In this document: positions 30,186-37,363 of the stretch, in pieces
How positions within the stretch are numbered: the first letter of the stretch is position 1
Layout: the number at the start of each line of letters is the position of its first letter
Assembly (NCBI RefSeq): GCF_023161665.1
Contig: NZ_JALNTW010000004.1
Coordinates: 211,182-275,181 of the forward strand
Direction of reading: 5' to 3'
DNA length: 64,000 nucleotides
DNA from: Shewanella sp. 1CM18E
GTDB lineage: Bacteria > Pseudomonadota > Gammaproteobacteria > Enterobacterales > Shewanellaceae
The notes under the pieces: generated by a model
The model's database searches: none
Seen by the model: only the letters and a program-made list of their open reading frames with translations
Told to the model about the DNA's origin: nothing
Position numbers and translations under genes: made by a program

Positions 30186-31058
30186 TTAGCTACTATAAAG
30201 ATTAATACCAGTGCTGGTTGCAACAATACAATCCAAACCACTTTGCTTCATGCTAGTACATGCTGACAATGCTTGTTGACGCTGGGTAAACTCGCCAACT
30301 TTAATTCGGTAATATGTTTTTCCGTTAACTAAAACGCGCTCATACCTCGGCACATAACGAGCTAACTGAGTGCCAAAACGACTATTTAACTCAAACCAAG
30401 TAGGCTCGATACGAGAGAATTTATCCACTGATGATAACTGCAATGCAAAACCACTTTTCTTCCCAGCGGTTTTAGCTTCTGCTTGCGTCTTATTCGCATA
30501 GTTCAAAACCTTTGGATTAGACTCGATAGGTTGTTCAGGCCCACCCGGATACGCTGAAGCGTAACTTCTAATAGCTAAAGGTTCTGGCACATTAACCTTG
30601 GTTTTCGAGCTCTCAGGTGCAACCATTTGCTCAACCTGTACTTCGTCAACTTTATTGTCACTGCCTTGGCTCGAAATTTGGTGTTTAACCTCCATCGTTG
30701 AACTTGCTACTGCTATTGAATCTGACGAAACGGACGTTGGCATTTGTTTAGTCGCTTTAGGCGTTATTGGAGCTGGTCTAGCTGGTGATTGGTTTCCTGC
30801 CGCCAACATAGTGAGTTGCTCAACCAATAACTTCAAGTCGCCCTCAATAACAATCAAACGGGATAGACCAGCCTTCATTTGATGCCACTCAGCAAGCTCT
30901 TGCTCTAATTGTTCTATTTTGTCTTTTAGTTGTTTTTGCTCTGCAACACGTTGCTTTTCAAGCGCGATATCAGCCTGATTAGCACAGCCCGTTAAGCTCA
31001 TTATGGCAACAAGCAAAGCCGCTGCTATAAAGCGAGCTCGATAGTTCACTAGATTCAT
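30186..31058 (-). CDS. Lipoprotein with coiled coil and SPOR-like C-terminus
   Basis: Last gene of the pilus operon, about 290 residues. It has a lipoprotein signal ending in LTGC, a coiled coil (about residues 30-90), a low-complexity linker (about 90-200) and a C-terminal SPOR-like module from about 215 (FALQLSSVDKFSR...YYRIKVGEFTQRQQAL). The module ends with a Cys pair spaced C-x9-C. SPOR domains bind denuded peptidoglycan, so this may tie the pilus base to the wall. Its coiled coil (ELAEWHQMKAGLSRLI) is recognisably similar to that of the first gene of the operon. GTG or ATG starts up to 31076 are possible. The SPOR assignment is by pattern only. Confidence 0.75.
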   Translation of the reverse strand: MNLVNYRARFIAAALLVAIMSLTGCANQADIALEKQRVAEQKQLKDKIEQLEQELAEWHQMKAGLSRLIVIEGDLKLLVEQLTMLAAGNQSPARPAPITPKATKQMPTSVSSDSIAVASSTMEVKHQISSQGSDNKVDEVQVEQMVAPESSKTKVNVPEPLAIRSYASAYPGGPEQPIESNPKVLNYANKTQAEAKTAGKKSGFALQLSSVDKFSRIEPTWFELNSRFGTQLARYVPRYERVLVNGKTYYRIKVGEFTQRQQALSACTSMKQSGLDCIVATSTGINLYSS

Positions 31059-31127
31059 TTTAAAACTCATTTCCACAAGACTGTCTCTGAAAAGTAATAT
31101 GATTTAAATAGAAAAAGCCTAAATTTA

Positions 31128-34100
31128 TTATGATTCAAATTCGAACTCAAAAGGCTCGACACTGCACTTTAGACCTTGTTTTGTAATTTGAGAGCAACCG
31201 TTTTCAGCTTGTTGTTTACGAGCCAAAAAGGCTACATTTAACGCATAACGCTTAGTTTTTTTATCTTCGATATAAAACACTTGCTGGCTCATGGCATCAT
31301 CATAATTGTGCTTAACTAACTGCCAATAGGTTTTTAGCATTGCCAGTGAGTTAAATTTACCTAGGTTCATTACATAGCCTTTGGTCATCATGATCTCTGC
31401 AAACGTAAAGTCAGCACCATTCATTACATCACCATTATTTTGCAAGGTAATCGCCATTTGTGACTCACCACGTAACTTCTTACGTTCAAGGTAGTTTGTA
31501 TCAATAGATAACTGGTAATCACCCGGAATTAAATCGGTAAACAGGTAATATCCATCAAACTCTGTTTCTGTAGTGGCGACAATATCACCTGCCGCATTGA
31601 CTAAGTTGACTGTGGCATAAGGTGCGATAGATTCAGTACCATCGACTTCGCGCACATACACAGTACCTTCAACTTCTGCTGCGTTAACGACAGGAAAATC
31701 TAAAGTCTGTATATGACCACGCCTTGGGGTGATAGAGACCCCTGGAATAGCGGGAATTAAGAAAGGATCACCTAAGCTTTTTTGATCAAGCACAATATCG
31801 GTTTTCTTCTGACTAGACATTGAGGTTAACATCGCCACGCCATCTTGATTACTAGTGCCATAGCGGTACTGTTGCACACCTTTGACTCTTGCGCCTTCAA
31901 TTACAGCCTCACCAGCATCAAACCGTCCATTAAGGTTGTCATCCTCAAACACTCGCACCATTAAGGCTCCCGCACCAGATAAGCTACGCGATGACATAAA
32001 CACTTGCTCAGTTTGCGGCTCATAACCAAAGCTAAAGCGGCCATACAAACCTAATGACCAGTCGCCAGTATTATCATAAGAAACAGTAGAATTAAGACTA
32101 AATGCATTATGCTGCCAGCTTAAGCTAGCACTACTACTTAACAGATCAGTTATAGGGTAGTAATCAAGCTCAAGTTCAGATTGTAGATGAGTGTTAATTG
32201 GGATGGAGAACTCAGTAGAGAATCTAGAAATTTCAGCTTCTGGCTGAATAAAATAATCTAATTTCACCCTGCTAAACGCCCACCCAAAACTCTTTTGCAG
32301 CTGCAATTGGCCTGTAAGCGAGTCATCTAAAGCTGCGTCATTAGAAGAGTGCCCAGTATACCAAGTTAATTGGTTATTAATGTTTGCCCAACCAGTACTT
32401 ATCGCGAGCAAGTTGCCGAACTCATCGTGCTTTGCGCCATTACTCGTTTGAGTTTGTCGCCAATGATTTCGATAATTTAAACGATAGGGAGAGCCTTGAA
32501 AAATATATCCACTGTGGTCAAAATTATATTCTGTATGTTGTTGCTGACTTAAATTTTCTAAGGTCTTTTCTGATACCTGATAACGCAAGCTTAAAGATTG
32601 GTTACCAATTTGGGTTCGCCCTGAAACAGCAAATGTGCTGTCTTGATGGTCTTTCATTTGATAATCAGCATCAACAAGAAAACGTTCAAACAGATTAAAA
32701 TTACCACCAATGGCATAAGTATCGACAGAAGTGCCCTGATCTGATAACTGCTCTTGCACACCTAAATTAATCGATGCCCAATCAGTTAAACCGCGCTCAT
32801 AGGTCGAGCTTAGCACCCAACCCGTTTCATTATCATCAGGTGTACTAGAGATACCAGATAAACCTTTACCAATTTCAGCAAGCGAAACACTATAGCTGCT
32901 CTCGTTAGCTTTGAGCTTATTACTATCAACATAAACTTGTTTAGTTTCGGTTTTAACCTGTCCTTGCGGGCCATAAGCGATCATCTCAAATTGGTTATCA
33001 CCATACAGCAATTCGATGTCGTTAAACTCATAGCGACCATTTTGCAAACTAAGCGCCTGCCTGATCAGTAAACCGTTTTGATATAGCTCTATATCCCAGC
33101 CAGGTTGAATATCACCACTGAGATTGATGGTTCTATTGTTGGCCGATACACCTGTTTTATCATTAGTTACTGAGACACCGCGACTTTGACCTAGCGTGCC
33201 ATCAACTCCAACGCTCACAGGAGTAATATCACCCAATCTAAATTCTGTCGCCTTTAATGGGCCTAGTAAGTCCCCAGCAGCCGATTCTTTTGATAAGGTT
33301 AAACGTAAGTCCGTCAATGCATCGTTACTATTGCCGCTGGCATAAAACTCACTACTTAAGAATGCGAAATCATGACCGCCAATTATCGAGTAACTTTGAT
33401 AATTGTTGTGTTCTGTCACTGCAGCGTTAACCTGCACATCGACTAAAGGAGAGGATATCGCTTGATAATTAGATTCTTTCCAAGGCAACACAGCCTCTCT
33501 ATTGCGACTTACAGCTTGATTTAGTTGACGCTTTTTTCGCGCTAATCTTTGTTGTACAGGTAACGGCGAGGAGCTGCTAATTTCTACCTTTAAATCTGAA
33601 AAACTATAGTCAAAAGTGATACCAAACCACTTTTCAATCTCATCGCCGGCAATATAAATATCATCAGCCATAAGGGTGTAATGACTAGGTTCTAATTCGA
33701 AATCCTGCTGATTAACCGAGACATTAACGACTTCCTCTCCCGCTTCAGGTAGGCGCATTAAAAATTGACGAGTCTCATCTAAATACCAGCCTTTAACTAT
33801 GCGATTGTCAAAGTCGCCTTCAATTGGAAAATCAATTAACTCAAATAGCCCTATTAAACTAAATTGCGCATTTTGCTTGCTTTTAATAGCAAACACATCT
33901 GACAAATAATGATTATCGACATAAAGAGATAGCAGTAATTCCTCCCCTTCGGGAATACCCAACTGCTCGCCGGAGAGTTCAGCGTTTACACTCGTGACAT
34001 CAGTTGTAGATGCTAAAACTGCAGCTTGAGATTGTAGCTCCTGCAGTGACAAACTGTAACTTTGCTTCAGCCTCGCTAAAGTGCGCGCAACGTCGGCATT

Positions 34101-34259
34101 ATTTAAACTTGCAAGCTGAACGTTTTGCTCTGATTGAATAGCTACAGGTAAGGCGTGTTGAGACGATATAAAAGCAATAAAAGCAGGCTGCGCACTTGCG
34201 GAGCCTGCATAACTGACAAGCAGAGATAAAAGTAATGCATAACTTAGGCGATAGCGCAC
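31128..34259 (-). CDS. TcfC-like outer-membrane usher with SPOR-like tail
   Basis: A 1043-residue usher of the alternative (class 5/CS1, TcfC-like) chaperone-usher type. It has a signal peptide and an N-terminal region of about 280 residues. A beta-barrel core follows, holding the usher-type segment GDIQPGWDIELYQNGLLI and the plug-like stretch RYEFNDIELLYGDNQFEMIAYG. After the barrel come Ig/carboxypeptidase-regulatory-like modules (VFEDDNLNGRFDAGE and FDGYYLFTDLIPGDYQLSID). The last about 83 residues (from 961) look like a SPOR module with C1022 and C1032 spaced C-x9-C. I know of no described usher with that tail. It exports and assembles the pilins encoded upstream. Confidence 0.88.
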   Translation of the reverse strand: MRYRLSYALLLSLLVSYAGSASAQPAFIAFISSQHALPVAIQSEQNVQLASLNNADVARTLARLKQSYSLSLQELQSQAAVLASTTDVTSVNAELSGEQLGIPEGEELLLSLYVDNHYLSDVFAIKSKQNAQFSLIGLFELIDFPIEGDFDNRIVKGWYLDETRQFLMRLPEAGEEVVNVSVNQQDFELEPSHYTLMADDIYIAGDEIEKWFGITFDYSFSDLKVEISSSSPLPVQQRLARKKRQLNQAVSRNREAVLPWKESNYQAISSPLVDVQVNAAVTEHNNYQSYSIIGGHDFAFLSSEFYASGNSNDALTDLRLTLSKESAAGDLLGPLKATEFRLGDITPVSVGVDGTLGQSRGVSVTNDKTGVSANNRTINLSGDIQPGWDIELYQNGLLIRQALSLQNGRYEFNDIELLYGDNQFEMIAYGPQGQVKTETKQVYVDSNKLKANESSYSVSLAEIGKGLSGISSTPDDNETGWVLSSTYERGLTDWASINLGVQEQLSDQGTSVDTYAIGGNFNLFERFLVDADYQMKDHQDSTFAVSGRTQIGNQSLSLRYQVSEKTLENLSQQQHTEYNFDHSGYIFQGSPYRLNYRNHWRQTQTSNGAKHDEFGNLLAISTGWANINNQLTWYTGHSSNDAALDDSLTGQLQLQKSFGWAFSRVKLDYFIQPEAEISRFSTEFSIPINTHLQSELELDYYPITDLLSSSASLSWQHNAFSLNSTVSYDNTGDWSLGLYGRFSFGYEPQTEQVFMSSRSLSGAGALMVRVFEDDNLNGRFDAGEAVIEGARVKGVQQYRYGTSNQDGVAMLTSMSSQKKTDIVLDQKSLGDPFLIPAIPGVSITPRRGHIQTLDFPVVNAAEVEGTVYVREVDGTESIAPYATVNLVNAAGDIVATTETEFDGYYLFTDLIPGDYQLSIDTNYLERKKLRGESQMAITLQNNGDVMNGADFTFAEIMMTKGYVMNLGKFNSLAMLKTYWQLVKHNYDDAMSQQVFYIEDKKTKRYALNVAFLARKQQAENGCSQITKQGLKCSVEPFEFEFES

Positions 34260-34328: not shown

Positions 34329-35168
34329 CTAGTTGTTAGTAAATGCTTCTGCGGTTACAGCAAACTCTTTCTCTGCAAAAACTTGCCCGTTAAATTCTTG
34401 CTGCCCTTCATAAACAATACGCAGCTTGCCGTTAGACCGGGTGAAATCCTTTGCAATCCAAGCCATAGACTTAACAGCTTGATTGACCTCTGGATATATA
34501 TTGACGTTATTTAAGCGCGCAACAACTTGCTCAGCTCCTTGATCCCCTAACCAATACGCAACTAAATTCCCAGCTGTAGAATATTCACCTGTTCGAGTTA
34601 AATTAACGTTCAATACGGTTTTACCACTATGTTGATCAAAGCGTAATGCCTTTGACGTAATCTCAACTTTAGGGTTAGCTTTTCCTTGCCTAACGATTAC
34701 TGGCAGGCTGTAACTTAACAAAACGTCCAGATTAATCGACATTTCACCATCTGACTTTTTAGCTCGTTTTGGCGGTAACGCTTCTAGCTTTAAATGCGAA
34801 CGATACTCTCCATCAGCAAGATCTTTAGGGCGCCTTAGACCCAACCTAACTATCTGACGCTCATTAGGCTTCAAAGTCACCTGCCTCGGACTAAAGCGCA
34901 GCATTTTGCTAGCTGAGGGATAGCCAATTGCCTCTTCTGCTGTTAGGTCTTTATAGCCACCACTTGGTAAAGCTAACTTTTCTTGCCACGCAAGACGGTA
35001 TGTTTTGACTTCAGAGCTGCTATTTATAAGTACAATCTCATGGGATCTTTCGCGTCCCTCAAAAGCAACCCGGATAGGAGACACCAATAAGCTAGCTTGA
35101 GCTGAATTGATAAATGAAAATAAGCATATTGACACAAAAAATGTAGCTTTTAATAAGCGCTTAAACAT
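34329..35168 (-). CDS. Periplasmic pilus chaperone (PapD-like fold)
   Basis: This 279-residue exported chaperone holds pilin subunits and delivers them to the usher. It has a signal peptide (FFVSICLFSFINSAQA), a first Ig-like domain with the chaperone pattern SPIRVAFEGRERSHEIVLINSS and FSPRQVTLKPNERQIVRLGLRRPKDLADGEYRSHL, and a second domain to the end. It has the basic cleft-like RLGLRR segment typical of the group. It lies between the minor pilin gene and the usher gene on the same strand. The length fits the alternative chaperone family rather than classic FimC/PapD. Confidence 0.88.
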   Translation of the reverse strand: MFKRLLKATFFVSICLFSFINSAQASLLVSPIRVAFEGRERSHEIVLINSSSEVKTYRLAWQEKLALPSGGYKDLTAEEAIGYPSASKMLRFSPRQVTLKPNERQIVRLGLRRPKDLADGEYRSHLKLEALPPKRAKKSDGEMSINLDVLLSYSLPVIVRQGKANPKVEITSKALRFDQHSGKTVLNVNLTRTGEYSTAGNLVAYWLGDQGAEQVVARLNNVNIYPEVNQAVKSMAWIAKDFTRSNGKLRIVYEGQQEFNGQVFAEKEFAVTAEAFTNN

Positions 35169-35260: not shown

Positions 35261-35710
35261 CTAATAACTAATATCTAAATAAAAAACGGCTTGGTAGGAA
35301 GTATTTAAATAATGCTTACCATTACCTGAAGTCATCAATTTGCCACCCATTTGAGTGATAGCCATACCAGCACTATCTGTACGAATATTCGGCTCAATAT
35401 AGATCTCACTTAAGGTGAATTGTTCAGTATCTCCTGATGCAACAGTCGTTATAACAGGCAACATTGGAGTAATTGAAAGATCGACATAAGGTGGGTAATC
35501 AGTAATGACCATTTCAGCTGCTTGCCCGGGTTTAATGATCAGCAGTTGCCCTGAAGAAGTGCTATGGCCAAAGGTAGGCACTACCACACTACTTTGAATG
35601 CTGTTATCACGTATCACTATAGTGCCAAACGATAGCGGCTGTTCAAAATACACATCTGCACTTACGTCAAAAATGGCCGTTGTTAAAACCAAAAATAAAA
35701 TAGATTTCAA
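35261..35710 (-). CDS. DUF4402-type minor pilin or tip subunit
   Basis: This 149-residue exported subunit has a signal peptide ending FDVSA and a beta-rich body. It shares with the major pilin the N-terminal pattern QPLSFGTIVI (major: KPLNFGEITAV) and the alternating C-terminus SYQAVFYLDISY (major: EFTGTFPITVSY). That places both in the DUF4402 group of pilus subunits. The shorter length and its position after a strong intercistronic hairpin suggest a lower-abundance initiator or tip subunit. Which it is cannot be read from the sequence. Confidence 0.8.
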   Translation of the reverse strand: MKSILFLVLTTAIFDVSADVYFEQPLSFGTIVIRDNSIQSSVVVPTFGHSTSSGQLLIIKPGQAAEMVITDYPPYVDLSITPMLPVITTVASGDTEQFTLSEIYIEPNIRTDSAGMAITQMGGKLMTSGNGKHYLNTSYQAVFYLDISY

Positions 35711-35769: not shown

Positions 35770-36399
35770 TTAGTAGCTAACAGTAATAGGAAAAGTGCCT
35801 GTAAACTCACCATCTTGATACTGTCTATCAATAACATTGGTATCAGCAACATACACATCTGTCGTTAACGTGCCACCAAAGTTAAAGCTCGCATTACCTT
35901 GACCGTCTGCAGTCAACTTTTTATCTGCAGCATAAAGAGAGCCGTCATTATCGCCAGATGTGATGTATGCAGTAATAGCGCTTAATACAAACTTAGGTGA
36001 TCCTGGAGGTGCTGAAGCAGCTACAACATTGGTTGGAGTTGTCGGTAAAGTCACGCTTAACTCTGAATATGGTGCAACACCAGCAACGGTAACTTCACCT
36101 GGTTCACCCGGTACTAATAATCTAATAGTTGCTGCATTCAAAGCACCATTAACCACAGTTGCCTGCTCAGTTGGGTTTGGCGACATTGTAATACTAGCAC
36201 TTACGCCATCAGCATCTGCTAGGTCGACTACTGCAGTGATTTCACCAAAGTTTAATGGCTTAGCCACAACCATTTCAAAAGCATTTTTAACAGTAACAGA
36301 TGCTGTAGCATTCTCTGTTTCAGCAGCCATAACTGGTGCAGATGCAACCATAACTAATGCTAAGCCAACAGCTTTTGCCACCATAGAAATATTTTTCAT
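35770..36399 (-). CDS. DUF4402 major pilin
   Basis: This 209-residue exported pilin has a clean signal peptide (LALVMVASAPVMA), then a body with KPLNFGEITAV near the mature N-terminus and a C-terminal strand GEFTGTFPITVSY. That strand is of the kind exchanged between subunits by donor-strand complementation. It contains no Cys. It is rich in Ala, Thr and Val. Its position just before a strong palindromic hairpin in the operon fits the most abundant subunit. The DUF4402 assignment is from pattern recall, not a search. Confidence 0.85.
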   Translation of the reverse strand: MKNISMVAKAVGLALVMVASAPVMAAETENATASVTVKNAFEMVVAKPLNFGEITAVVDLADADGVSASITMSPNPTEQATVVNGALNAATIRLLVPGEPGEVTVAGVAPYSELSVTLPTTPTNVVAASAPPGSPKFVLSAITAYITSGDNDGSLYAADKKLTADGQGNASFNFGGTLTTDVYVADTNVIDRQYQDGEFTGTFPITVSY

Positions 36400-36607: not shown

Positions 36608-37363
36608 TTATATTCTCTCACCCTTATATTCAACTACGGCACAGTACTGCCCTTCGACTTTTAATAGGCGGCATATTGATAATGCCGATTTTTTACTCGA
36701 GTATGGCCCATAGACCAACCGAGAGAAACTCTTACCTTTACTAACAAAATCGACTTTCATTGGTTGGCCATCAACCAAAAAATCATGAAACCTTTTTTTA
36801 TAACTAAGCCAACCTGCCTTTAGGTTATTACTTTTAGAGTAAGAAGACAGGTGAATGCCATAAGCATTAGGAGCATTTTTTATTTCGGTCACCTTATTAT
36901 TTTTTAGTGCCTTCTCTACCTTATTAACGACTTTCGGTTTAATTGTATTTTTTTTAGCCATAGCATCAGTGGAAATAAATTCTTCAATAAAACCTTTATT
37001 AGTTACCGATTCTTTAGATACGACAAACTTAACCGGTTGCTGCTGAATCTCGACAACTTTACTCAGCTCGGATATCAATAAAGCAAGATCAGCTTCATTC
37101 TCGACCAATCGCTCTATCGCAGGCTTTAACTTATTCCAAGCTTCAAGCTCTTGTTTTACATGTAACAACTCAGCAGTCAGTGCCACTAACTGGCCCGCTT
37201 CAGTGTCTTTAGTTTCAGCTGCATCGCTAGATGCAGTAAAGGCACATAACCAAATCGAAACCACGGTACTGACAACAAGTGAGTAAAAATCGCTATAATT
37301 AATTTTTAATGATTTAGTAAAAAGACTCACTTCATTAACTCTTTCATTAATTAAAAAATGCAT
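36608..37363 (-). CDS. Membrane-anchored coiled-coil protein with SPOR-like C-terminus
   Basis: First gene of the pilus operon, 251 residues. One N-terminal hydrophobic helix (DFYSLVVSTVVSIWLCAF) precedes a coiled coil (about 55-100) with QELEAWNKLKPAIERLV, clearly similar to the last gene of the operon. A basic linker follows. The C-terminal SPOR-like module (YGIHLSSYSKSNNLKAGW...YGPYSSKKSALSICRLL) has C231 and C241 spaced C-x9-C. It may anchor the assembly in inner membrane and wall. The gene is AT-rich and Lys-rich. Function is inferred from architecture only. Confidence 0.75.
   Translation of the reverse strand: MHFLINERVNEVSLFTKSLKINYSDFYSLVVSTVVSIWLCAFTASSDAAETKDTEAGQLVALTAELLHVKQELEAWNKLKPAIERLVENEADLALLISELSKVVEIQQQPVKFVVSKESVTNKGFIEEFISTDAMAKKNTIKPKVVNKVEKALKNNKVTEIKNAPNAYGIHLSSYSKSNNLKAGWLSYKKRFHDFLVDGQPMKVDFVSKGKSFSRLVYGPYSSKKSALSICRLLKVEGQYCAVVEYKGERI

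Follow-up and report, generated by a model that had tools for sequence, protein, structure and literature searches.

A divergent SPOR-fold domain behind the last usher domain of a Shewanella chaperone-usher pilus operon with SPOR genes at both ends

In the stretch of 64,000 nucleotides from the marine bacterium Shewanella sp. 1CM18E analysed here (the window), we found a chaperone-usher pilus operon whose outer-membrane usher ends in a divergent domain of the SPOR fold, the type of domain that normally holds the cell wall. The first and the last genes of the same operon also end in SPOR modules, as the preliminary description of this DNA had proposed (Pfam SPOR, 25.0 and 28.5 bits, respectively, against a cut-off of 21). 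As the usher pore and the products of its neighbours share a wall-holding domain, the machinery that builds the fibre is probably fastened to the cell wall. Our main reading, with a probability of about 0.5, is that the SPOR-footed usher works with the SPOR partners of its operon, such that a partner binds glycan, the foot of the usher docks on the partner or shares its strand, and the pore is thereby tied to the wall. SPOR domains have been described from proteins of cell division and morphogenesis (PMC6895207), and the recurrent link between ushers and SPOR domains extends them to a machine for surface fibres.

All genes of the operon are on the minus strand, in the order SPOR protein, two DUF4402-type pilins, PapD-like chaperone, usher, and SPOR lipoprotein. 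The upstream SPOR protein (36608..37363; 251 aa) is without a clear lipobox, and its SPOR domain (36632..36865) carries His, Arg, and Val at three contact positions. The downstream SPOR lipoprotein (30186..31076; 296 aa as called) is laid out as a lipobox (LTGC, read by eye), a coiled segment, a linker, and a SPOR domain (30219..30452) with Gln, Arg, and Lys at the positions of Q270, R309, and R311 of RlpA. These two SPOR genes are homologous over most of their length (BLASTP E 7e-14). Between them lie the pilins (35770..36399, Pfam DUF4402 20.9 bits, and 35261..35710, 25.6 bits; cut-off 25.2), the periplasmic chaperone (34329..35168; Pfam PapD_N 21.9 bits, cut-off 23), and the usher (31128..34259; 1043 aa). 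The context of a chaperone-usher operon is present, with the chaperone and one pilin slightly under the Pfam cut-offs, and none of the operon proteins was matched over cut-off by NCBIfam.

The usher consists of an N-terminal domain (NTD), a barrel with a plug, and C-terminal domains, followed by the SPOR domain. The full-length model (pLDDT 85.9), built from a 68-row alignment which left out L100 (a 771-aa ORF), L131, L137, and some near-duplicates, has the FimD/PapC-type fold throughout barrel, plug, NTD, and C-terminal domains. Its top 14 structural matches by VIA-align are all FimD/PapC ushers (Z 18-21), and Foldseek finds 3rfz at E 1.7e-27, the entry which alone among the listed VIA rows spans the NTD, with a high rmsd. 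The translocation barrel (about residues 271-747; 32019..33449) was placed by alignment to the FimD/PapC translocation domains 3ohn, 2vqi, and 3fip. Among 14 aligned ushers, that of the window being one, neither Pfam Usher nor Pfam TcfC gives a match at E<=1, and a search of the own genome for the TcfC E-set domain (PF16967) was negative at E<=0.001, with a positive E. coli control; the label 'TcfC-like', given to this usher earlier, is therefore not supported. A PDB sequence search with the usher profile returned mostly antibody chains and an SdrD domain and was uninformative, and the identity of the window protein as an usher rests on its fold and gene context. It is 97-98% identical to the ushers of S. 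pneumatophori and S. marinintestina.

The C-terminal side of an usher is periplasmic, and FimD ends at its second C-terminal domain. Among the FimD chains, those extending into the C-terminal domains are aligned up to FimD residue 833-834, which corresponds to about residue 953 of the window usher, and the SPOR domain is therefore an addition behind the second C-terminal domain. The window usher is like FimD and PapC in its NTD, its plugged barrel, its C-terminal domains, and an operon with pilins and a PapD-like chaperone; unlike them, it has about 90 extra residues behind the FimD-matched stretch, which are the SPOR domain, and it escapes the two Pfam usher models named above. Since the aligned range of FimD/PapC ends where the SPOR begins, load bearing with and without a wall anchor becomes comparable.

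The SPOR-fold domain covers usher residues 957-1041 (31137..31391). The AlphaFold2 model of the tail, made from 81 tails including two Desulfobacteraceae rows with plain SPORs, gives a beta-alpha-beta-beta-alpha-beta (RNP-like) fold with pLDDT mostly over 90 across the domain (71/112 residues at >=90, with the lower values mostly in residues 1-22, which precede the domain), and the full-length model, with the Desulfobacteraceae rows left out of its alignment, has the identical tail topology. By VIA-align, the best matches of the tail are 6ozd (Z 10.1), CwlC (8.5), RlpA (8.0, twice), DamX (6.6), and DedD (6.4), with the next row at 4.9; five of these six are titled SPOR or wall-binding, and the first-ranked, 6ozd, is an exported protein whose domain is unnamed in the title. 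Foldseek of the tail against the PDB gave nothing at E<=0.001 (best CwlC at 1.2e-3, with PII-like and other ferredoxin-like folds close behind), and because of this the claim of a SPOR fold rests on the Foldseek rank of CwlC, the VIA-align matches, and the topology. A PDB sequence search with the tail produced one chance match (ribosomal S8, E 0.64).

Under Pfam SPOR (PF05036; cut-off 21 bits), the window tail scores 20.2 bits as a piece and 18.1 bits within the whole usher, below the cut-off in both cases, and 16 of 81 usher tails (the two Desulfobacteraceae rows included) match at E<=0.01. A SPOR profile grown solely from neighbouring genes, seeded with the two bracketing genes of the window and drawing on the neighbours of 80 related loci, matches residues 963-1037 of the window usher at 3e-11 and 40/81 ushers at E<1e-3. 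The likeness of the tail to SPOR therefore exceeds chance, and we call the tail a divergent SPOR-fold domain because of its fold and this neighbour-derived profile and not because of the Pfam score. The SPOR-type beta-alpha-beta pattern first read from the sequence was thus borne out by the predicted fold, the solved SPOR structures matched, and the profile. Its start needed a correction: Gly961 starts at 31379, the 31376 given before being one codon late, and the domain itself begins at about residue 957. A chance pattern or an ordinary usher C-terminus was considered and rejected on two grounds: the matches of tail-less relatives break off in the last C-terminal domain or shortly after it, and the tail is the mark of a single clade. 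In comparison with the SPOR family PF05036 (RlpA, DamX, DedD, CwlC), the tail is alike in its fold and in the Phe of beta1 (F969); it is unlike them in its C-x9-C pair, in being without the Gln and basic contacts, and in its carrier, a pilus usher.

The two cysteines are at the sites read earlier, Cys1022 in helix alpha2 (31194..31196) and Cys1032 just before beta4 (31164..31166), and their C-x9-C spacing is found in both bracketing genes too. Every aligned SPOR has the pair, whether encoded downstream (70/70), upstream (60/60), or in the usher itself (79/79, counting the window); it is a mark of the entire SPOR subfamily rather than of the usher.

For related loci we used the best 80 of 408 relatives, and the frequencies therefore lean to the window's clade. 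A long usher ORF runs through to the end in each of these 80 loci (950-1322 aa; L100 has just 771). Among the best 80 of 408, the last two Cys of the usher are nine apart in 76 and ten apart in two, a Cys-paired tail in 78/80, while the two ushers without a Cys pair are both from Desulfobacteraceae. A chaperone gene is present in 79/80 loci, at least one pilin in 78/80, and at least one SPOR gene in 77/80 (both sides in 35, upstream only in 16, downstream only in 26). The SPOR gene is within 6.5 kb of 77 of the 78 ushers with Cys-paired tails and directly downstream on the same strand in 57/80 loci; the most frequent gene order is SPOR, pilin, pilin, chaperone, usher, SPOR (18/80). Beside tail-less ushers, no SPOR gene was found in 8/8 counted loci, one of which, L171, is truncated by the end of its contig a short way upstream of the usher. 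Such absences are not strong, since the SPORs of a second usher clade (see below) escaped the SPOR profiles; the silence of these profiles beside second-clade ushers and seven f230/f231 ushers counts for little. L172 (usher runs to the contig end) and L175 (a 5.5 kb locus) were kept out of this co-occurrence count, and L168 was dropped as an intact usher.

In RlpA, the contacts to denuded glycan are given as Q270, R302, R309, R311, and F274 plus backbone contacts, and most polar contacts come from the backbone of the beta1 strand and the beta1-alpha1 turn (PMC6895207). Q270, R309, R311, and F274 were located in the SPORs of downstream genes (70), upstream genes (60), and ushers (79, counting the window) by aligning them with MAFFT. 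At the Q270 position, a Gln occurs in 55/70 downstream and 29/60 upstream SPORs and in 2/79 usher tails; the corresponding numbers are 54/70, 21/60, and 4/79 for a basic residue at R309, 67/70, 29/60, and 3/79 for one at R311, and 53/70, 11/60, and 0/79 for the full triad (Gln and two basic residues). The window usher has N965, A1006, and N1008 at these positions, neither the Gln nor the basic patch. Phe at the F274 position has the reverse trend (14/70 downstream, 9/60 upstream, and 75/79 usher tails; F969 in the window), Gly is at the G272 position in 73/79 usher tails, and the glycan-binding beta1-alpha1 turn is kept in the tail of the window usher. Other basic residues are found at the beta3 start in 48/79 usher tails, and the net charge is positive in 64/79. 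The structural alignment with RlpA bears out the mapping of the first strand (model residue 30 = RlpA 266); the mapping of the third strand comes from the sequence alignment and is perhaps off by one, the neighbours Y1005 and L1007 not being basic either. As a mapping control, three SPORs of the own genome aligned only in part, with the first strand misplaced; L002 and L003 have the Gln by eye.

The canonical contacts are missing in the usher foot and were therefore lost there, but another binding mode is possible. As F969 and the beta1-alpha1 turn are kept and 48/79 tails have basic residues at the beta3 start, weak or altered glycan binding is conceivable. Known SPORs form their basic patch from residues that are in part not equivalent (PMC6895207), and the loss of the R309/R311 equivalents is therefore not proof of lost binding. 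Hence the proposal of the preliminary description that the usher itself may grip the wall stands in part: the SPOR fold, its carriage by the usher, and its periplasmic position remain, and the grip is weakened by a canonical triad that is absent from all 79 tails. A direct grip, with the SPOR foot of the usher itself attached to denuded peptidoglycan and serving as the chief anchor in the wall, would draw on that fold, on the retained Phe and Gly in a domain type where the backbone makes most polar contacts (PMC6895207), on the basic residues of beta3, and on usher SPORs of other lineages which keep Gln or Arg. Set against the near-absence of the Gln and of both basic residues from the tails, we consider it rather unlikely.

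The tail also has conserved residues of its own, namely G-x-F-x-S, Lys976, and Tyr978, and a pattern for them fits 60/80 ushers and 0/130 partner SPORs. Such tail-specific residues, in a domain directly behind the last usher C-terminal domain, would suit a tail that does not bind the wall and is now a protein-protein module in assembly, e.g., for docking chaperone-subunit complexes or for gating the plug. We regard this as very improbable, given the SPOR genes beside nearly all Cys-paired ushers and the existence of two stripped ushers that have retained the foot, with neither a chaperone nor a pilin gene found in their surroundings.

These stripped ushers, L052 (774 aa; L052:5989-8313) and L053 (800 aa; L053:5680-8082), come from two genomes of one genus. 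By alignment to full ushers, both are without most of the chaperone-facing NTD (about 100-230) and C-terminal domain (about 765-935) stretches and retain the barrel, the plug, and the SPOR foot. One SPOR lipoprotein adjoins each of them, and the chaperone and pilin profiles which are positive beside the full Psychromonas ushers L038 and L040 had no match in the L052 and L053 stretches. The stripped form was found in 2/24 genomes of that family. Possibly it is a wall-tied barrel with a job other than the pilus; barrel, foot, and lipoprotein travel together in these two loci.

In the clade of the window, the pattern of contact residues points to the downstream partner as the more probable binder of the wall; the usher tail would be its docking half or a half-site. 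A lipobox is found, by a loose pattern and with the window left out, in 51/69 downstream and 42/59 upstream proteins, and thus the partners are probably lipoproteins in most loci. None of the lipobox-positive SPOR partners has Asp behind the Cys, and by the sorting rule for lipoproteins the SPOR lipoproteins would sit in the outer membrane. A helical motif, KPxIxRLxxxExDLxxL, lies ahead of the linker in SPOR partners (window 30819-30905 and 37064-37150; partners of L058-L136). A loose form of it fits 54/130 partners against 1/1059 other neighbours, and we consider the motif a candidate docking element.

The computed results are the fold, its position at the end of the usher, the make-up of the operon, the joint occurrence of tail and partners, and the pattern of contact residues. 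Beyond these, we infer glycan binding, foot-partner docking, and load bearing in the following way. The downstream partner, held by its lipid in the outer membrane, would bind denuded glycan strands; the usher foot would dock on this partner, or share the strand as a half-site; and foot and partner together would tie the pore to the wall. With this tie, the pore would withstand a pull on the fibre instead of being dragged through the membrane, and it would perhaps also be placed where denuded glycan is rich. Two findings count against the role given to the partner: SPOR genes are only upstream in 16/80 loci, where the triad is rarer (11/60), and the upstream protein of the window is without a clear lipobox. 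The SPOR modules could instead serve mainly to target the pilus machine to the division site or new poles, the source of denuded glycan, and not to carry load. The SPOR proteins studied so far are described as binding septal denuded glycan (PMC6895207), and the contact residues kept in the downstream partners would fit such targeting. Present evidence does not separate targeting from load bearing, and both may coincide; as the main function, targeting seems to us unlikely.

In two trees of ushers, the tail-bearing ushers are one side of a branch with support 100/100 (47 rows, 32 with the window-type tail, in the first tree; 50 rows, 26 with that tail and 12 rows left out, in the second). The tail is thus no ordinary part of all related ushers, as tail-less relatives exist and the tail is confined to one clade of the sampled ushers. 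SPOR domains are also found in ushers outside this clade. Those of the Desulfobacteraceae loci L131 (1318 aa) and L137 (1322 aa) have three C-terminal SPOR-like repeats (43.1 and 43.8 bits, respectively, in Pfam); their first two contact positions are occupied by His and Arg. The L169 usher (1077 aa) has one SPOR (Pfam 28.5 bits) and the L170 usher (1204 aa) two (62.9 bits); in both ushers, Gln, Arg, and the C-x9-C pair are kept. These two and L131 group with the window clade in the second tree (100/98, 29 rows). L169 gives a weak Pfam Usher match (17.4 bits, under the cut-off of 27.1). The pattern is complementary: the ushers of L131, L137, L169, and L170 have Arg together with Gln or His, and their loci showed no SPOR gene apart from the usher itself; in such lineages the usher SPORs may bind the wall directly. 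In the L170 locus (14.8 kb), the chaperone and pilin profiles that are positive in L169 found no match, and the L170 usher is possibly without its usual partners nearby.

In a second group of SPOR ushers (L210-L212 and L029-L033), 1114-1233 aa long, the SPORs are, as read by eye, mostly in tandem. Pfam SPOR is over cut-off in six of these eight (L210, L211, L212, L030, L031, and L032); L029, which at 13.7 bits is below the cut-off, and L033, without a Pfam match, were called SPOR-bearing by eye. Gln is present in all 15 first strands read by eye in this group, and Pfam found no SPOR in 10 neighbouring proteins of L210 and L212. Seven of the group stand together elsewhere in the second tree (99/99), with L030 beside them on a long branch, and tail-less ushers stand between the window-side clade and this group. 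On the evidence of this tree, usher SPORs would lie in at least two branches, through two gains or one old gain with losses.

The ushers just described suggest a class of pili with a pore built for wall fastening, either by one to three contact-keeping SPORs of the usher or by an altered foot with SPOR lipoproteins, which in some Psychromonas relatives is stripped to barrel, foot, and one lipoprotein without a pilus; to this joint claim we give even odds. No description of an usher-borne SPOR was found in open-access literature searches (by title or abstract start), and the claim of a new architecture holds to this extent, weakened in so far as it included a wall grip by the tail itself. The nearest precedent is the type II secretion secretin LspD of Legionella, likewise an outer-membrane pore with a predicted SPOR domain of its own (PMC6617341, PMC9239104). 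Unlike the window usher, LspD is a secretin with the SPOR at its N terminus, and the passages on it in these two sources mention no operon of SPOR partners. The inverse autotransporter YeeJ differs in having LysM in place of SPOR and in being a one-protein adhesin with no pore for fibre assembly. A long usher with a SPOR tail and C-x9-C SPOR partners can serve as a marker for this pilus type, which is present in many marine Gammaproteobacteria; SPOR-bearing ushers occur in Desulfobacteraceae too.

Within the genus, the SPOR-usher operon looks patchy (accessory). Among the matches listed from same-genus genomes, the usher of the own genome alone aligns through the tail. The own genome also has a second, tail-less usher operon (L056, on C14). 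Its usher shares 24% identity with that of the window; a chaperone gene accompanies it, as do small pilin-like genes recognized by eye, which the pilin profiles missed. In the second group of SPOR ushers, FlgO-family genes (L210:11510-12861; Pfam FlgO, 145.7 and 116.7 bits) adjoin the SPOR-usher operon, and FlgO-like genes were seen by eye beside the usher loci L041, L042, L047, and L048 too.
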